From assembly GCF_020164495.1 (NCBI RefSeq), contig NZ_JAIQYZ010000006.1, positions 62,001 through 126,000 of the forward strand: 64,000 bases of DNA, read 5' to 3'. The DNA comes from Psychroflexus lacisalsi. GTDB taxonomy: Bacteria; Bacteroidota; Bacteroidia; Flavobacteriales; Flavobacteriaceae. Both the position numbers and the translations under genes were made by a program. Within the stretch, counting starts at the first letter, position 1. Each line of letters opens with the position of its first letter. Shown here in pieces: positions 18,081 through 62,746 of the stretch. Below the pieces are notes generated by a model, which searched no databases, was not told where the DNA came from, and saw only the letters and a program-made list of their open reading frames with translations.

Positions 18081-18281
18081 ATGAATGCACTTAATGTTAT
18101 AATGGGAATGGTAGGACCATGGCAATGGGTAATCATTGGTATTGCAATCCTTCTACTCTTTGGTGGAAAGAAAATACCAGAATTGATGAGAGGTCTAGGT
18201 AGTGGCATCAAAGAATTTAAAGATGCTTCCAAAGAAGATGAAACTAGCGAGACAAATAATGAATCTAAGTCTATTAAATAG
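18081..18281 (+). CDS. tatA: Twin-arginine translocase subunit TatA/TatE
   Basis: A 66-residue pore-forming component of the Tat system, which exports folded proteins. One transmembrane helix (about 13-28, [14 protein letters not shown]) is followed by the conserved hinge and amphipathic helix ([18 protein letters not shown]) and an acidic tail. The length fits TatA. It stands alone, divergent from the M23 operon and ending at a terminator; tatC is not in the window. Confidence 0.93.
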
Positions 18282-47664: not shown

Positions 47665-47672
47665 TAAGTTTG
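47665..47672 (+). promoter_or_regulatory. -7 promoter element of the peptide-export operon
   Basis: TAAGTTTG matches TAnnTTTG and lies 22 bases before the TTG start of the first gene. No -33 element is clear. Confidence 0.55.
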
Positions 47673-47694
47673 CGTCCAACTAAACCAACTAGCC

Positions 47695-48327
47695 TTGAAA
47701 CTTAAATACTTTAACCTTTTTTTCCTTTTATGCCTTGCTTATCTTGGAATAGGGATAATCACTCAAGAACTATTAAAAACAGAAATTCTATTAGCGGAAA
47801 CGCTTTTAGAACAATTTACACGAGATCAAGTGATTGAAGTGGTCAACTTCAATAGAAAGTGGGAATGGATTACTTATATATTGCTTCCAATAATTCTTCT
47901 CCTCAAAATTGCAGTCATTGCAAAAATTATAGATGTTGGTGCTTTTTTCATAGACAAAAAAGTGAGTTATTCTAAATTGTTCTCTGCTGTATTAAAGGCA
48001 GAATTTATTTTTTTAGTAGCGCCAGTTTTAAAGCTCGGATGGTTTTATTTCTTTAAAACAGATTTCGGCCTGGTAGATTTACAAAACTTTTATCCGCTAT
48101 CCCTTATCAATATTACTGGCTACGAAAATCTAAAGAGTTGGTTTATTTACCCTTTGCAAGCCCTTAATCTTATTGAGATGGCTTACTGGTTCTTATTAGC
48201 CTATCAAATTAAAAAATTACTTGAAATCGATTTTGGAAAAAGCTTTGGCATTGTGATGAGTAGCTATGGAGTCGTTCTCCTGATATGGATAATAGCAGTC
48301 ATGTTTTTCACCCTTAATATGAGCTAA
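47695..48327 (+). CDS. Integral membrane protein of the bacteriocin-like cluster
   Basis: A 210-residue protein with about five hydrophobic segments (YFNLFFLLCLAYLGIGI, ITYILLPIILLLKIAVIA, FIFLVAPVLKLGWFYF, LNLIEMAYWFLLAYQI and VVLLIWIIAVMFFTLNM). I do not recognise the family; the topology recalls Yip1-type proteins. The start is TTG (codons TTG AAA CTT AAA), since no ATG fits and the promoter is 22 bases upstream. Its stop overlaps the start of the thioredoxin-like gene (TAATG). It may aid maturation, export or self-protection of the peptides. Confidence 0.7.
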   Translation: MKLKYFNLFFLLCLAYLGIGIITQELLKTEILLAETLLEQFTRDQVIEVVNFNRKWEWITYILLPIILLLKIAVIAKIIDVGAFFIDKKVSYSKLFSAVLKAEFIFLVAPVLKLGWFYFFKTDFGLVDLQNFYPLSLINITGYENLKSWFIYPLQALNLIEMAYWFLLAYQIKKLLEIDFGKSFGIVMSSYGVVLLIWIIAVMFFTLNMS

Positions 48328-48854
48328 TGATGACCAAAAAGAAAAAAATAAAGACCCTCATCTTAATATCAGTTAGTCTCCTGTTTTTAATCTTGGCTTA
48401 CTCCTTTGTTAACTCGTATTATACTAAACATACTAGAGAAGCTGAACTTATTGAATTACCAGATATCCCTTTGCATGATCTAAGTGGAAACAATTTCAAT
48501 ATTGAACAACTTGAGGGTTTGAAAATTCTCGTGTTTATGGATCCTGATTGTATTTATTGTAAAAATCAAATCAAAGAGTTCAAAGAACTTAGAAAACGGC
48601 TTAGTTATTTGACTATAGTAGGTATTTCTGAACAGCCTTTGGAAAAACTTAAAGATTATATCAACACAGAACCTTTTTTTAACGAACCTAAAAACTTTAT
48701 GACCCATGATTACACTAGTAAAATGGCTGATCATTTTTGGATTGGAACTACACCTCATCTTTTAATTTATGATGAGAACAATCAACTGATTAAGCAAAAT
48801 AAAGGTTTTATTAATGCTGATAAGTTAATAGCCATACTTGAAAAAGTTCAGTAA
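48327..48854 (+). CDS. Membrane-anchored thioredoxin-like protein with CxxC
   Basis: A 175-residue protein with an N-terminal helix at about 10-29 (LILISVSLLFLILAYSFVN) and an extracytoplasmic domain of the thioredoxin/redoxin fold. FMDPDCIYCKNQ carries the Cys75-x-x-Cys78 pair, and TTPHLLIYD contains the expected cis-Pro. It probably makes or resolves disulfides outside the membrane. The two precursors downstream each have exactly two cysteines in their cores, natural candidates for substrates. The start overlaps the previous stop; a second ATG follows immediately. Confidence 0.8.
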   Translation: MMTKKKKIKTLILISVSLLFLILAYSFVNSYYTKHTREAELIELPDIPLHDLSGNNFNIEQLEGLKILVFMDPDCIYCKNQIKEFKELRKRLSYLTIVGISEQPLEKLKDYINTEPFFNEPKNFMTHDYTSKMADHFWIGTTPHLLIYDENNQLIKQNKGFINADKLIAILEKVQ

Positions 48855-51023
48855 ATGAAAAACTTAAAACAAATCAGCAAAACTCATGTTTTACAACTAG
48901 ACCAAAGCGATTGTGGTGTGGCTTGTCTGTTGAGTTTAGTAAATTACTATGATGGTGAATCTAGCTTAGAGCATTTAAGAAAGCTTAGCGGAACAAGTAA
49001 ACAAGGAACTACGCTTTTAGGCTTGTATCAAGCAGCTCAAGATTTAGGTTTTGATGCACAAGGCAATGAAGCAGATATAAAAGCCATAATTGAACATAAT
49101 GAACCTACTATCTTGCATGTAGTTATCGAAGAACAGTTACAGCATTATGTGATTTGTTATGGCTACAATGGCAAAACCTTTACTATAGGCGATCCGGGTA
49201 AAGGCATTTATGAGTACACCAGAGAACAACTCGATAACATCTGGCAATCCAAAACTTGTCTTACCTTGAAACCTACGCAAGCATTTGAGAAAAAGAGCAA
49301 ACTCAAGAAATCTAAAAAAAAGTGGTTTTTCCAGGTTTTGAAAGAAGATTACCGCGTCATTAGTTTTAGTCTAATTCTAGGTCTGGCTATTTCTATATTA
49401 GGCATGACCATGGCGGTCTTTTCCCAAAAGTTGATCGATGATATTTTACCTTCCAATAATATTCAAAAGTTAATCGCAGGTATTGTTTTAGTAGGCTTTT
49501 TGTTATGCATTAGGATAGGTTTCAATGCCTTAAGAGATTATTTTCTCATTCATCAAACCAAGGAGTTCAATACTCGAATTATAGATAAGTTTTACTCCTC
49601 GTTATTACATTTACCCAAATCCTTTTTTAACAGTCGTAAAATTGGGGATCTTGTGGCCAGATTAAATGATACACAGCGAGTACAACGTGTGATTAACCGA
49701 ATAGTAGGCAATGTATTGATAGATATTTTGGTTACACTCTCTTCATTAGGATTAATTTTTATATACTCCTGGCAATCAGGCCTCATCGTCATTGTAAGTT
49801 TACCACTTTATGCTATTTTGATTTATAGATTTAATAAACCTATCATCACTTCACAAAAAGAAGTGATGCAGGCTTATGCGCTCAATGAAAGCAACTATAT
49901 CAACTCCATGAATGGCATTTCGACCATCAAAAACAACAATAAGCAATCGATATTTCAAGATATAAATAACGTTATTTATGGTAACTTTCAGTCCAAAGTA
50001 TTCGATTTAGGTAAAATTAACCTGAAGCTGAGTGCTTACTCAGGCTTATTTTCAACATTTTTTTTAATTGGAATTTTAGCTTATGCTAGCTTTAGTGTGT
50101 ATAGAGAAGATTTACAATTGGGAGAATTAATGGCTATTTTGGGCGTTTCTGGATCCCTTTTGCCTGCTGTAGCCAATTTAGCCTTAATAAGTATTGCCAT
50201 CAATGAAGCTAAGGTTGCTTTTAACCGCATGTTTGAGTTTGCCTCTATTACACCAGAACAATCAGGGTCTAATGAAATAAAGAATTTTAAACAAATTGAG
50301 CTAAAGAACATAGCTTTTAGATTTCCAGGGCATAGCCTCTTATTTGAAAACTTGAGTTTAAGCATAAAAAAGGGAGAGTGCCATGTGCTAGTTGGTGAAA
50401 GTGGTAGTGGAAAAAGCACCATTGCCGAAATCTTACAGAAATCTTATGAATTAAGCAGTGGACAAATTATCCTGAATCATTCCATTAAACTGAAAGACAT
50501 AAATATAGAGTCCTGGAGAAAAGTGATTGGTGTTGTTCCGCAGGATGTCACCCTTTTTAATGGCAACCTCCTATCCAATATTACTTTAGGTGATGAAATG
50601 GATCCTCAAACTATGGAAGAATTCTTTCAAGAATATCAATTTGATAAATTTATTCAAATGTTACCACAAGGCTTGGCAACTATCGTGGGTGAAGAAGGTA
50701 TAAATCTTTCTGGTGGGCAAAAACAAATGGTAGGCTTAATGCGTGCTCTCTATAAAAAACCGCAATTTTTAATTTTAGACGAGTTTACGTCCGCGATGGA
50801 TAGGCTTACAGAAAATTTTGCCTTAGACTGTATTTCCAAAATTAAATCTGAAATAGGTGTGTTTTTTATCACGCACCGTTTAAGCATTGTTCCAAGAATT
50901 GCAGACAAGATATCTGTATTAGAAAAAAAGTCGATAAAACTAACAGATTCACATAAAGAACTACTGAAACACAATAATTTTTATAGTCAATATTGGAATG
51001 AGCTTCTAAACTTAAATGAATAA
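48855..51023 (+). CDS. Peptidase-containing ABC exporter (C39 type) for double-glycine peptides
   Basis: A 722-residue exporter that cuts leader peptides after GG and exports the product. The C39 domain (1-130) has Cys20 in LDQSDCGVAC, His97 in QHYVICY and Asp113 in IGDPGKG. Six transmembrane helices span about 165-450. The ATPase has Walker A GESGSGKST (514-522), signature LSGGQ (618-622) and LILDEFTSAMDR, where the usual DEPTS is DEFTS. It begins right after the thioredoxin-like stop. Two GG-leader peptides lie 0.8 kb downstream and are the likely cargo. No HlyD-type adaptor or outer-membrane channel is in the window. Confidence 0.93.
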   Translation: MKNLKQISKTHVLQLDQSDCGVACLLSLVNYYDGESSLEHLRKLSGTSKQGTTLLGLYQAAQDLGFDAQGNEADIKAIIEHNEPTILHVVIEEQLQHYVICYGYNGKTFTIGDPGKGIYEYTREQLDNIWQSKTCLTLKPTQAFEKKSKLKKSKKKWFFQVLKEDYRVISFSLILGLAISILGMTMAVFSQKLIDDILPSNNIQKLIAGIVLVGFLLCIRIGFNALRDYFLIHQTKEFNTRIIDKFYSSLLHLPKSFFNSRKIGDLVARLNDTQRVQRVINRIVGNVLIDILVTLSSLGLIFIYSWQSGLIVIVSLPLYAILIYRFNKPIITSQKEVMQAYALNESNYINSMNGISTIKNNNKQSIFQDINNVIYGNFQSKVFDLGKINLKLSAYSGLFSTFFLIGILAYASFSVYREDLQLGELMAILGVSGSLLPAVANLALISIAINEAKVAFNRMFEFASITPEQSGSNEIKNFKQIELKNIAFRFPGHSLLFENLSLSIKKGECHVLVGESGSGKSTIAEILQKSYELSSGQIILNHSIKLKDINIESWRKVIGVVPQDVTLFNGNLLSNITLGDEMDPQTMEEFFQEYQFDKFIQMLPQGLATIVGEEGINLSGGQKQMVGLMRALYKKPQFLILDEFTSAMDRLTENFALDCISKIKSEIGVFFITHRLSIVPRIADKISVLEKKSIKLTDSHKELLKHNNFYSQYWNELLNLNE

Positions 51024-51030
51024 TGTTGTA

Positions 51031-51375
51031 TCAACTTTTTTTATTCAGAAGTTTTCTTAGGAAAAGTATTTCCTCTTTTAAAAATCTCACATGTTCAAAA
51101 TCCATATCAATGGATTCTTCAATTGACTGTTTGTCGCTTTTTGGAGCTATTTTATTGATGCTTGAAAGAGGTTTTTCATTAAATAAATCCGAGAGACTAA
51201 TTTCCAATATGTCTGCAATTTTTTTCAGCCTTTCAATATTTATTCTAGAGTCTTGAGCCTCAAGTCTGGCATAGCTAGGTTGGGTTATACCGAGCTCTTC
51301 GGCTATATATTCTTGGGATATTCCTTTTAAGACGCGTAGCTATCTTATACGTTTACAAACAACATTACTTTTCAT
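51031..51375 (-). pseudogene. XRE-family HTH regulator interrupted by an amber codon
   Basis: A 115-codon frame runs from ATG 51375 to TGA 51031 and reads MKSNVVCKRIR, then TAG (51340-51342), then LRVLKGISQEYIAEELGI and TQPSYARLEAQDSRIN. This is a textbook XRE helix-turn-helix except for the stop at codon 12, where relatives usually have Lys. The remainder (dimerisation region, then a charged tail) is open. No ATG, GTG or TTG follows before the HTH ends, so an intact HTH cannot be made without readthrough. It is convergent with the exporter gene (7 bases apart) and divergent from the peptide genes, the position of a local regulator. Confidence 0.8.
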
Positions 51376-51764
51376 GAAACTAATTTTTGCCTTTTGATTA
51401 TGCTTGTTTAAATATCAAGTGTTTATTTTCTTTAGAGATTTAGACATATCAATTAAGTTTATGCATTATTATCTTTAAGTAACTCAACAAGATTTGAATG
51501 AATTAATTATTTAAATTTAGAGGAATTAAATTATAATGAGTTACGGTTCAACCTTACTTATGTTACGGGAAAACCGCATTTAACTTTTGTTCAAAGATTA
51601 AAATTAAAAACAACAGATTTTACTCAGTGCTAACATTGACAGTATTTAATACACTATATTTATATATCGAATACTTTTAATTAAAAAACAATTAAGTTAA
51701 TTAAATTGTGAATAATCAATTACTACTATTCCATTTTACTTTAGTAGTGTTTAAAATTGGTAAC

Positions 51765-51801
51765 GCCAAGCCCAATTTTAAAACTTAAAAACTTGCTTGG
51801 C
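51765..51801 (+). promoter_or_regulatory. Inverted repeat in the leader of the peptide precursor genes
   Basis: GCCAAGC (51765-51771) pairs with GCTTGGC (51795-51801) just before the first precursor ATG (51823). A smaller dyad ACTACT/AGTAGT lies at 51722-51748 near a TACTTTAG that differs from the -7 consensus by one base. The rest of 51376-51822 is very AT-rich with no convincing gene. Confidence 0.35.
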
Positions 51802-51822
51802 ATTCACTTAATATTTATTTTT

Positions 51823-52017
51823 ATGAAAAATTTAGAATTAACTCAGATGGAACATTTGAGTGGTGGAGAATATGACTGTGACTTTCATATGAGTCTAGGT
51901 CTAACTGTAATGACTGGGGGACTTACAACAGCTTTTACTCCTGGAGGTGCTGCAATACTTTTTGCTGGAGCTTTATACAGCTTTTATTCGGCTGAAATTA
52001 AAGGTTGTACAAACTAG
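51823..52017 (+). CDS. Double-glycine leader peptide precursor 1 (bacteriocin-like)
   Basis: A 64-residue precursor. The leader MKNLELTQMEHLSGG is 15 residues and ends in the GG cut site with Leu at -4 and Met at -7, the C39-processed pattern. The 49-residue core starts EYDC and has Cys19 and Cys62 (one at each end), with a Gly/Ala-rich hydrophobic middle (GGLTTAFTPGGAAILFAGAL). This fits a class II bacteriocin or similar secreted peptide with a possible disulfide. A longer reading of this frame to the left lacks leader features. The second precursor follows 38 bases later. Confidence 0.8.
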   Translation: MKNLELTQMEHLSGGEYDCDFHMSLGLTVMTGGLTTAFTPGGAAILFAGALYSFYSAEIKGCTN

Positions 52018-52055
52018 TAATACAAATTAATAATTCTAATAAAAACTTTTAAAAA

Positions 52056-52250
52056 ATGAAAAAACTATCTATAGAAGAAATATTAAATGTAAATGGTGGT
52101 AATAGTTCATATGATGGTGTTTGTGCCGGAGCTTACGTATTGTCTGTTGCAGCTGCAGTAAACATTTGGAATCCTGCTGGCTGGGTGATGGCAGGAGTTG
52201 CAGCTGTTAGTTTCCATTGTTTTGTTAGTGACTTTGAATCTAGATTTTAA
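52056..52250 (+). CDS. Double-glycine leader peptide precursor 2 (bacteriocin-like)
   Basis: A 64-residue precursor of the same length as its neighbour. The leader MKKLSIEEILNVNGG is again 15 residues ending GG. The 49-residue core (starting NSSYDG) contains Cys23 and Cys55 around a hydrophobic Ala/Val/Gly stretch (AYVLSVAAAV, then PAGWVMAGVAAVSF). Apart from layout the two cores are unlike, as in two-peptide class IIb bacteriocins where both partners are needed. The small membrane gene follows 10 bases later. Confidence 0.8.
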   Translation: MKKLSIEEILNVNGGNSSYDGVCAGAYVLSVAAAVNIWNPAGWVMAGVAAVSFHCFVSDFESRF

Positions 52251-52260
52251 GTCTTTACTT

Positions 52261-52413
52261 ATGCGACCATTAATATCTGTTTTATCCATATTAGGATTAA
52301 TTATATTATACTTAGTAGAAACTGATGTTATAAATATAAAAAACAGATTATATGTTTACGGTTTAGGAATTTTGTTTATAATATATGCATCTATAAGTTA
52401 TAAGAAAAAATAG
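52261..52413 (+). CDS. Small two-helix membrane protein, possible immunity protein (50 aa)
   Basis: A 50-residue frame starting MRPLISVLSILGLIILYLV, with two hydrophobic helices (about 3-19 and 31-46) joined by a polar loop (ETDVINIKNR) and ending KKK. Its position directly after two bacteriocin-like precursors, in the same direction with a 10-base gap and before a terminator, is where immunity genes usually lie. Family membership is not recognised, so the role is an inference from place and topology. An alternative start upstream would overlap the second precursor and is less likely. Confidence 0.6.
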   Translation: MRPLISVLSILGLIILYLVETDVINIKNRLYVYGLGILFIIYASISYKKK

Positions 52414-61789: not shown

Positions 61790-62746
61790 TTATTTACTTT
61801 CTTTCGAATCATCCTTGGCTTTTTGCTCTTTTCGCTCATTTTGCTTTTTCATTTCTTCGCCTATTTGGCTTGAAGCAGTAAAAGAAGCAATCATATCGTT
61901 CAGCATATTACTTCCTGCTTCTGGAGCATTGGGTAACAAAATTAAATTAGAATTGGATTGACTACCGACAGACTGCAGCGTATCGTAATGCTGCGTCACA
62001 ACGATTAAAGCAGATGCTTCCTGAGAATTGATACCAACATTGTTCAGTACCTCTACACTTTCCTCCAGACCTCTGGCTATCTCTCTACGCTGATCGGCGA
62101 TACCCTGACCTTGAAGACGCTTGCTTTCTGCTTCCGCTCTGGCGACTGCTACGATTTTAATTCGTTCTGCTTCTCCTTCAAATTCAGCAGCTACTTTTTC
62201 GCGTTCTGAGGCGTTGATTCTGTTCATGGAATCCTTTACCTTCTCGTCTGGATCAATGTCCGTCACGAGTGTTCTAATGATATCATACCCATAGTCGAGC
62301 ATGGCATCATTAAGTTCTGTTTTCACAGCGTTGGCAATATCATCTTTACGTTCAAAGACATCATCCAACTTCATCTTAGGAACTTCAGCACGAACAACGT
62401 CAAATACATAAGAAGTTATCTGAGCGCTTGGGCTTTCCAGCTTGTAGAACGCATCATAGATTTTAGATCTTGTGACCTGATATTGAACCGAAACTTTTAA
62501 ATGGACAAACACATCGTCCTTTGTTTTTGTTTCAACATTGACATCCAGCTGCTGAATTTTCAAATTGATTCTTCCAGCGATTTTGTCTACTACTGGAATT
62601 TTGAAATGCAAGCCTGAATTTCTTAAAACTTGAAAACGTCCAAAGCGTTCCACAAGCGCAGCAGTTTGTTGTTTTACCGTGAAAATGCCGCTTATAATGA
62701 TGAAAAAAACAATCACCACTACAAAAATACTTAGTATTGATCCCAT
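61790..62746 (-). CDS. SPFH/band 7 membrane protein (stomatin-like)
   Basis: A 318-residue protein with an N-terminal transmembrane helix (about 4-22) followed by the SPFH domain (VKQQTAALVERFGRF, GLHFKIPVVDKIAGRINLK) and a long helical tail rich in Glu, Ala and Arg (AEFEGEAERIKIVAVARAEA). It fits QmcA/HflK-like stomatins that scaffold membrane proteases such as FtsH. It lies alone, with a terminator shared with the YtxH operon. The partner is not visible. Confidence 0.92.
   Translation of the reverse strand: MGSILSIFVVVIVFFIIISGIFTVKQQTAALVERFGRFQVLRNSGLHFKIPVVDKIAGRINLKIQQLDVNVETKTKDDVFVHLKVSVQYQVTRSKIYDAFYKLESPSAQITSYVFDVVRAEVPKMKLDDVFERKDDIANAVKTELNDAMLDYGYDIIRTLVTDIDPDEKVKDSMNRINASEREKVAAEFEGEAERIKIVAVARAEAESKRLQGQGIADQRREIARGLEESVEVLNNVGINSQEASALIVVTQHYDTLQSVGSQSNSNLILLPNAPEAGSNMLNDMIASFTASSQIGEEMKKQNERKEQKAKDDSKESK

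Follow-up and report, generated by a model that had tools for sequence, protein, structure and literature searches.

A candidate two-component bacteriocin locus on a bacteroidetocin-type export module in Psychroflexus lacisalsi

Described systems and the Psychroflexus locus

Three described kinds of exported peptide toxin are compared here with a compact locus of Psychroflexus lacisalsi, in which two precursors with double-glycine (GG) leaders lie near a C39 peptidase ATP-binding cassette (ABC) exporter. The locus lies in a 64,000-nucleotide stretch of DNA, called the window throughout (positions 62,001 to 126,000 of contig NZ_JAIQYZ010000006.1, forward strand). Class IIb two-peptide bacteriocins have one small membrane immunity gene and a GxxxG motif in both peptides. 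Class II microcins, of the colicin V type, combine a GG leader and a C39 exporter with a small membrane immunity protein. Bacteroidetocins are reported as single peptides without an immunity protein (Coyne et al. 2019, PMC6671954), 19 in number and with at least two cysteines each; their four-gene regions are sufficient in E. coli, a five-helix protein is needed for full activity (PMC6671954) and the target is BamA (PMC8546649). A preview article reports predicted class II bacteriocins across phyla, Bacteroidota included (PMC12648078). Passages from PMC10352776 and PMC13289728 describe no paired peptides in Flavobacteriia. Flavobacteriaceae, bacteriocin and double-glycine occur together in PMC5524665, the last two words in a cited title alone, that of a study from 2004 in which Dirix et al. 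reportedly screened Gram-negative genomes for peptides with GG leaders and for transporters. Among the listed papers of the open literature, titles and abstract openings gave no two-peptide bacteriocin with an immunity gene in Flavobacteriia, which is no proof of absence.

The window locus resembles bacteroidetocins in its Bacteroidota host, its 15-residue GG leaders (15–16 residues in that class) and its peptides with at least two cysteines. Next to the precursors it also has, judged by gene kind, the five-transmembrane protein, the thiol oxidoreductase and the C39 ABC exporter that form the published bacteroidetocin set, which places its export half among the known kinds. Unlike bacteroidetocin loci, the window has two precursors rather than one, placed 3′ of the exporter; its cores are glycine-rich with two cysteines near the ends, whereas bacteroidetocins of types A and B have four positioned cysteines; and a small two-helix membrane open reading frame (ORF) stands beside the precursors. 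No bacteroidetocin locus was found among the plasmid matches and the seven genomes sampled. With class IIb bacteriocins the locus shares two adjacent GG precursors that recur together, a C39 exporter and a small membrane ORF behind the pair, and the position and topology of this 50-residue ORF agree with an immunity gene of that type. It differs in that a strict GxxxG is present in core B only (GVCAG), in that the pair matched no NCBIfam class IIb model, and in its Gram-negative host, its cysteine pair in each core and its thiol protein. The GG leader, the C39 exporter, the glycine-rich hydrophobic core and the small candidate membrane immunity protein recall class II microcins, from which the locus differs by its second precursor and thioredoxin-like protein, and by having no membrane-fusion or outer-membrane channel gene among its own genes or ten neighbours. 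Because it lacks both the four positioned cysteines and the class IIb motifs, the locus is best filed as a bacteroidetocin-type export locus that would work like a class IIb bacteriocin and is a member of neither family.

On balance, we favour the explanation that an unmodified bacteriocin of class II type, probably with two components, is produced and exported by the locus. Cleavage of both precursors after GG would fall to the C39 domain and export of the cores to the ABC part; the CIYC protein would close one disulfide in each core, stapling a glycine-rich helical hairpin; and the five-helix protein would aid the exporter, its bacteroidetocin counterpart being reported as required for full activity. 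Having passed the outer membrane, cores A and B would jointly attack the envelope of related bacteria, with the inner membrane as the likeliest target, and the producer would be shielded by the 50-residue protein. The XRE regulator, broken here, would formerly have controlled the precursors, and cassettes of precursor and immunity gene would swap at one site and could outlive the exporter. The initial annotation, made from the window alone, had paired the C39 exporter with GG precursors and called the system bacteriocin-like, and this stands; it had overlooked the bacteroidetocin-type export set, the broken regulator and the separate evolution of leader and core, and on some points the results run contrary to it.

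The precursor pair and its export module

The GG-leader pattern finds five starts in three ORFs of the window, namely both precursors and an ORF at 18102 that we take to be TatA-like. This count is weak evidence by itself, since 40 dinucleotide shuffles of the window gave a mean of 0.6 and a maximum of 4 starts. A stronger point is that related precursors recur beside the same exporter in other genera. In what follows G numbers denote genomes and L numbers the loci surveyed (L128 is in G686, L130 in G174 and L152 in G696). Thirty loci were annotated and 27 of them gave 48 counted precursors, with none counted in L017, L050 and L082; three pattern matches (L015_9541, L016_1376 and L078_6116) were removed by hand, and four precursors of five named were added. 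Outside the 48 lie the second precursor of L049 and the precursors of the window's genus relatives, of L098–L100 and of L161, and two same-genus pairs of loci (L087/L088 and L083/L084) are not independent. Leaders are 15 residues long in 39 of the 48, and both window leaders have this length and an evident GG site, as first described. Exactly two cysteines, spaced 20–49 residues apart, are found in 40 of the 48 cores (six have four, one has three and one has a single cysteine); they lie at positions 4 and 47 of core A and 8 and 40 of core B. The calculated average masses of the two mature cores in reduced form are about 5115 and 5145 Da, and a disulfide would lower each by 2 Da.

For core A the homologue is L089_6348 (score 89, against at most 45 and 48 in two runs of 200 shuffles; z 12.9 and 11.3), and for core B it is L089_6525 (score 83, with shuffles reaching 44 and 49; z 11.6 and 10.9). 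L089 belongs to another family and has the homologues of A and B in the identical order; in each locus B or its homologue is followed by a two-helix ORF. The two-peptide partnership put forward in the initial annotation thus gains a second occurrence in one distant locus, and L019 and L048 have another pair in common (z 7.9 and 8.0). Both recurrences, together with the single membrane ORF that follows two precursors in the window and in L089, speak against A and B being independent one-peptide toxins that became adjacent by cassette accumulation, with the 50-residue ORF protecting against one of them. This alternative, which we consider somewhat unlikely, would fit the single counted precursor in 14 of the 27 loci (the second of L049 being uncounted and L079 cut by the contig start), the arrays of 3–5 precursors in L085, L048, L089 and L052, and the frequent genus cassettes of one precursor and one membrane ORF (G709, G691, G692 and G696).

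In a single-sequence model of precursor B (mean pLDDT 68), helices span residues 17–36 and 40–63; as modelled, B would form a hairpin with both cysteines at its open end. Family scans used an alignment of 47 of the 48 related precursors (L086_5618, with an unclear leader, was left out). Nine of them, neither window precursor included, matched Bacteriocin_IIc (PF10439) weakly, at E ≤ 0.1 (best 2.5e-4), and further weak matches were given by three precursors to the class IIb model TIGR03949 (best E 0.0011), three to Pfam MccV (best E 0.014) and five to TIGR04149, a family modified by radical S-adenosylmethionine enzymes (best E 0.0036). A modified peptide was rejected, since scans of the locus and of ten neighbouring genes showed no modifying-enzyme domain. 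GxxxG was likewise discarded as evidence for a two-peptide system: 26 of the 40 two-cysteine cores have one, which says little given 17% glycine.

The exporter matches Peptidase_C39 (PF03412, E 5.6e-32), ABC_membrane (PF00664, 2.2e-35) and ABC_tran (PF00005, 1.1e-30), all above the Pfam cut-off. Its translation has the catalytic residues C20, H97 and D113, already recognized in the initial annotation, and contains Walker A, LSGGQ, Walker B and the H-loop. Among solved structures it is closest to the bacteriocin transporters 4ry2 (E 2.8e-106) and 8vp3, and the score against TIGR01193 (377.5 bits) lies under the model cut-off of 523.85, which makes the exporter an outlying relative of that family. 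It is the single PF03412 match in the 3.04-Mb genome, and from its domains and residues we infer that it is the protein that processes and exports both cores. The thioredoxin-like protein matches AhpC-TSA (6e-9) and Thioredoxin_2 (6.1e-9) above the Pfam cut-off and has no cysteine beyond the CIYC motif; it is the probable disulfide catalyst for the two-cysteine cores.

The five-helix protein, a possible exporter-assembly factor, matched no Pfam or NCBIfam family above cut-off. Its model, built from four sequences (mean pLDDT 68; residues 118–156 below 50), has long helices at 3–27, 43–85, 92–120, 151–176 and 180–209. A named class was sought in vain: all 28 matches of a fold search had E values above 0.001, and none was used. 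The NCBIfam family YknW_fam is a weak lead only; it matched two of 14 five-helix relatives (best E 3.9e-6) and, among ten relatives scanned singly, L016 alone (E 0.01, 15.4 bits, cut-off 110), and the window protein was unmatched. YknW is reportedly one component of a four-part exporter for a Bacillus toxin.

The initial annotation had placed the six protein genes other than the regulator correctly, apart from the start of the membrane protein, which it set 30 bases too early: position 47665 is a stop codon in that frame (Table 1).

Table 1. Features of the locus, numbered from the first base of the window
Feature	Position	Strand	Description
Five-helix membrane protein	47695..48327	+	TTG start, 210 residues; possible exporter-assembly factor
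Thioredoxin-like protein	48327..48854	+	175 residues, N-terminal hydrophobic stretch, CIYC at 75–78
C39 peptidase ABC exporter (PCAT type)	48855..51023	+	722 residues
XRE-type regulator	51031..51375	-	In-frame TAG at 51342-51340; HTH_3 match
Inverted repeat	51765..51801	+	GCCAAGC, 23 nucleotides, GCTTGGC; 21 nucleotides 5′ of first precursor
Precursor A	51823..52017	+	64 residues, leader MKNLELTQMEHLSGG, GG at 14–15, core 49 residues
Precursor B	52056..52250	+	64 residues, leader MKKLSIEEILNVNGG, GG at 14–15, core 49 residues
Two-helix membrane protein	52261..52413	+	50 residues; candidate immunity protein

The candidate immunity protein

Partner ORFs were defined as ATG-started ORFs of 40–140 residues with at least two hydrophobic stretches whose start lies no more than 200 bases past a precursor; the control consisted of the remaining ORFs in the same loci with a length of 100 residues or more. 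Such an ORF stands behind a precursor in 16 of the 27 loci and behind 3 of 200 control ORFs (Fisher p 8e-15; some of the loci are congeneric). In L013 and L099 precursor (70% identity) and partner (48%) travel together, the partner being a protein of 131–133 residues with hydrophobic helices near its C-terminus, and precursor and partner also travel together in G691 and G692a. The small membrane immunity candidate of the initial annotation is supported by this position test and by the L013/L099 case, and the 50-residue membrane protein probably protects the producer. Similarity of cores and partners was correlated across 26 cassettes (Mantel r 0.66, 0 of 5000 permutations; 0.47 and 1 of 5000 without L088). 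We set this co-segregation aside as evidence, its strong positives being within-genus pairs; because close pairs drive it, the immunity case rests on position and single cases. None of 12 partner ORFs scanned gave a convincing family match.

The same ORF bears on a different explanation, in which the cores act at the surface, their target being BamA or a different outer-membrane protein, and in which export is what the small membrane protein aids. The accessory genes, which are like those of bacteroidetocins, suggest it, these peptides being reported to target BamA and to have no immunity protein (PMC6671954, PMC8546649). The window cores are two-cysteine and glycine-rich, not four-cysteine, and a partner ORF is found in none of the three four-cysteine loci (L051, L052 and L090) versus 16 of the 24 others (p 0.056). 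An export role for the membrane ORF is further opposed by its presence beside precursors even where no C39 exporter could be detected in the genome, and we regard surface action as distinctly improbable.

At L099 (4791–6410, minus strand) a tandem array of four additional small two-helix ORFs continues on from the precursor and its 131-residue partner, an arrangement that looks like an immunity island. This genome was not among the listed five-helix matches of the family search, and no search aimed at the C39 exporter itself was made there.

Cassettes at one site, regulation and relatives of the module

The full locus stands in the window between genes for an M13 and an S9 peptidase. The upstream M13 gene is present in 23 of the 27 genus genomes; the site was read further in seven M13-bearing genomes and in G696, and in the others for about 1.5 kb behind the M13 gene. 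At this site G709 has two precursors with membrane ORFs, G692 and G696 have a phosphatase-like gene with one or more precursors and membrane ORFs, and G690 has that gene alone; its phosphatase-like nature is our reading. In G174 the M13 gene is followed by two other precursors and a two-helix ORF, after which the contig ends. G708 and G687 have no cassette between the M13 and S9 genes by the criteria used, the cassettes of G691 and G698 are located elsewhere, and the remaining loci showed no such cassette within the roughly 1.5 kb behind the M13 gene. Two side observations concern the same site. In G686 (L128, 3671–4609, reversed orientation) small membrane ORFs stand alone at the cassette site and a precursor was not found there. 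In L127 and L131, from two genus genomes, a common stretch, ggaacgagaggaatgcattatgccgataggcaaa, lies just upstream of the cassettes and may be a repeat that helps exchange.

Seven of the 27 genus genomes contain the leader MKNLELTQME (pattern search with at most two mismatches; control 0). Among ten such precursors (45 pairs), leader DNA identity is 0.71–0.96 and ungapped core identity 0.23–0.42, with exceptions at 0.64 and 0.49. The ten were picked by the leader pattern, so this contrast is partly chosen; their likeness over the 60 bases upstream (0.38–0.90) and the shared site were not selected by leader. These data suggest that precursor and immunity cassettes are exchanged at a single site, where the leader and the 5′ element are conserved.

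PF03412 is matched in 5 of the 27 genus genomes. The initial annotation had named precursor relatives in genomes lacking a C39 exporter as evidence against itself, and four genus members have turned out to be such genomes: G691, G692 and G709 (99–100% complete) and G698 (79%) carry precursors of this leader type and no PF03412 match. These precursors match the window in leader and 5′ region, not in cores. Three of the seven are damaged (G692a has lost its GG, G698a its start, and G698b has 19 residues), and none of the three same-leader precursors of the window, G174 and G696 is visibly so, that of G696 having a short core of 33 residues. We read the exporter-less cassettes as decaying and as kept for immunity after loss of the exporter; alternatively, another protease may act on them, or a draft assembly may have hidden the exporter. 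G174 and G696 have exporters of a different type, 28–29% identical to that of the window. There (L130 and L152) this second C39 exporter type stands with a thioredoxin-like gene, an opposite-strand XRE gene and small membrane ORFs, the gene before the exporter being presumably an adaptor; L130 has an additional GG-type short ORF.

More tentatively, flavobacteria may run polymorphic two-peptide bacteriocins on a bacteroidetocin-type export module, with stapled hairpin pairs, cognate immunity, swapped leader-anchored cassettes and non-producers that keep immunity genes in islands such as those of L099 and G686. If so, Bacteroidota would have a two-peptide class with dedicated immunity, in contrast to the bacteroidetocins, described as single peptides without an immunity protein (PMC6671954). 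One kind of export module would then serve two designs of toxin: surface toxins with four cysteines and no immunity protein, and hairpins with two cysteines, frequently in pairs, that come with an immunity protein of their own. Flavobacteria would offer testable toxin and immunity pairs, the conserved leader before variable cores would help to predict exporter cargo, and a single genus would hold a natural record of cassettes swapped, kept for immunity and lost.

The XRE regulator has an in-frame TAG 11 codons from the ATG at 51375, and the part after the stop matches HTH_3 (E 1.6e-13); either the gene is broken or the TAG is a sequencing error. Opposite-strand helix-turn-helix relatives lie near precursors in L015, L049, L078, L080, L081 and L100, and L082 has one with no precursor called. 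Such genes would suit peptides that are pheromone signals, read by the XRE regulator or another receptor, instead of toxins, as would the export of pheromones by other C39 exporters, the ComA chains among the exporter's structure matches and the weak resemblance of the precursor B leader to the EntF induction-factor model (E 0.076). Cores that vary while their leader is kept, hydrophobicity and small membrane proteins suit a toxin with its immunity better, and we think signalling very improbable. The stop codon also bears on whether the locus is a decaying remnant whose genes look intact and are unexpressed, a view to which the damaged cassettes of G692a, G698a and G698b and the presence of the export module in 1 of the 27 genus genomes (five-helix tracer) would lend colour. 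The six other genes are open and full-length, the exporter keeps its catalytic residues, and loss of a repressor could instead raise expression; we judge a remnant unlikely.

The inverted repeat 5′ of precursor A is the sole exact match in the window, and 100 shuffles gave none. With a like interior it precedes the MKNLELTQME leaders in the window, G174, G692, G698 and G709, at one place each; G690 and G696 also contain it exactly, with interiors that differ, and a control pattern was matched in 3 of the 27 genomes. The RNA fold of the element has a z of −2.5. Its 5′ arm is lost in four of ten aligned elements and one base off in a fifth, and the stretch proximal to the start codon is better kept, so that a promoter or operator and an RNA hairpin are equally likely readings.

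Several results weigh against the favoured bacteriocin explanation, among them the precursors in the four genus genomes without PF03412. Neither the locus nor its ten neighbouring genes include a membrane-fusion or outer-membrane export gene to account for the outer-membrane step. A search of 397 family genomes with a B profile gave six with E ≤ 0.01, the window's own included, and no second A/B pair, so that the pairing rests on two loci; core A lacks a strict GxxxG and has small-xxx-small only; and neither precursor nor the 50-residue ORF matched a Pfam or NCBIfam family above cut-off. The partner ORFs also weigh against it: the 50-residue ORF is weakly like the ORF at the same place in L089 (29% identity, z 2.3), those of L019 and L048 are not alike (z −0.7) although the precursor pair is common to both, and among ten cassette comparisons with core z ≥ 6 the partners reach z ≥ 4 in three, all within a genus (background 7 of 315). 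The broken regulator may mean that the locus is mis-regulated or decaying, and antibacterial action is a prediction from sequence.

Related loci were traced by the five-helix protein, with the window's own genome included in the counts. Relatives were found in 10 of 299 genomes of the family, with two marginal partial matches (G181 and G189) that are module-less, in 15 of 395 of the order and in 20 of 395 of the class, about half of the last without an adjoining C39 exporter of this kind. Class matches excluded for lack of such an exporter were L053, L054–L056, L059 and L061–L064; L057, L058 and L060, where a shorter protein of 453–454 residues stands instead, and L065, whose exporter is distant and which gave no called precursor, were excluded as well. 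The same accessory genes occur with GG precursors in many Bacteroidota loci, including those of an Allomuricauda metagenome-assembled genome (MAG), an uncultured Cellulophaga and a Dysgonamonadaceae MAG, and one relative of the module lies on a Flammeovirga pectinis plasmid (L161). The usual gene order is precursor or precursors, small membrane ORF, membrane protein, thioredoxin-like protein and exporter, unlike the window and the Flammeovirga plasmid, where the precursors lie 3′ of the exporter.

Standalone five-helix relatives with no adjoining C39 exporter (L054–L056, L059 and L061–L064) belong to one family of the class and are possibly the housekeeping ancestor of the module's protein. 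Last, L018 (1593–3459, reversed orientation) has, in place of the small two-helix ORF, an ABC ATPase-like ORF and two others between the precursor and the five-helix protein gene; two of these ORFs are presumably of membrane type, and together they are possibly another kind of self-protection.

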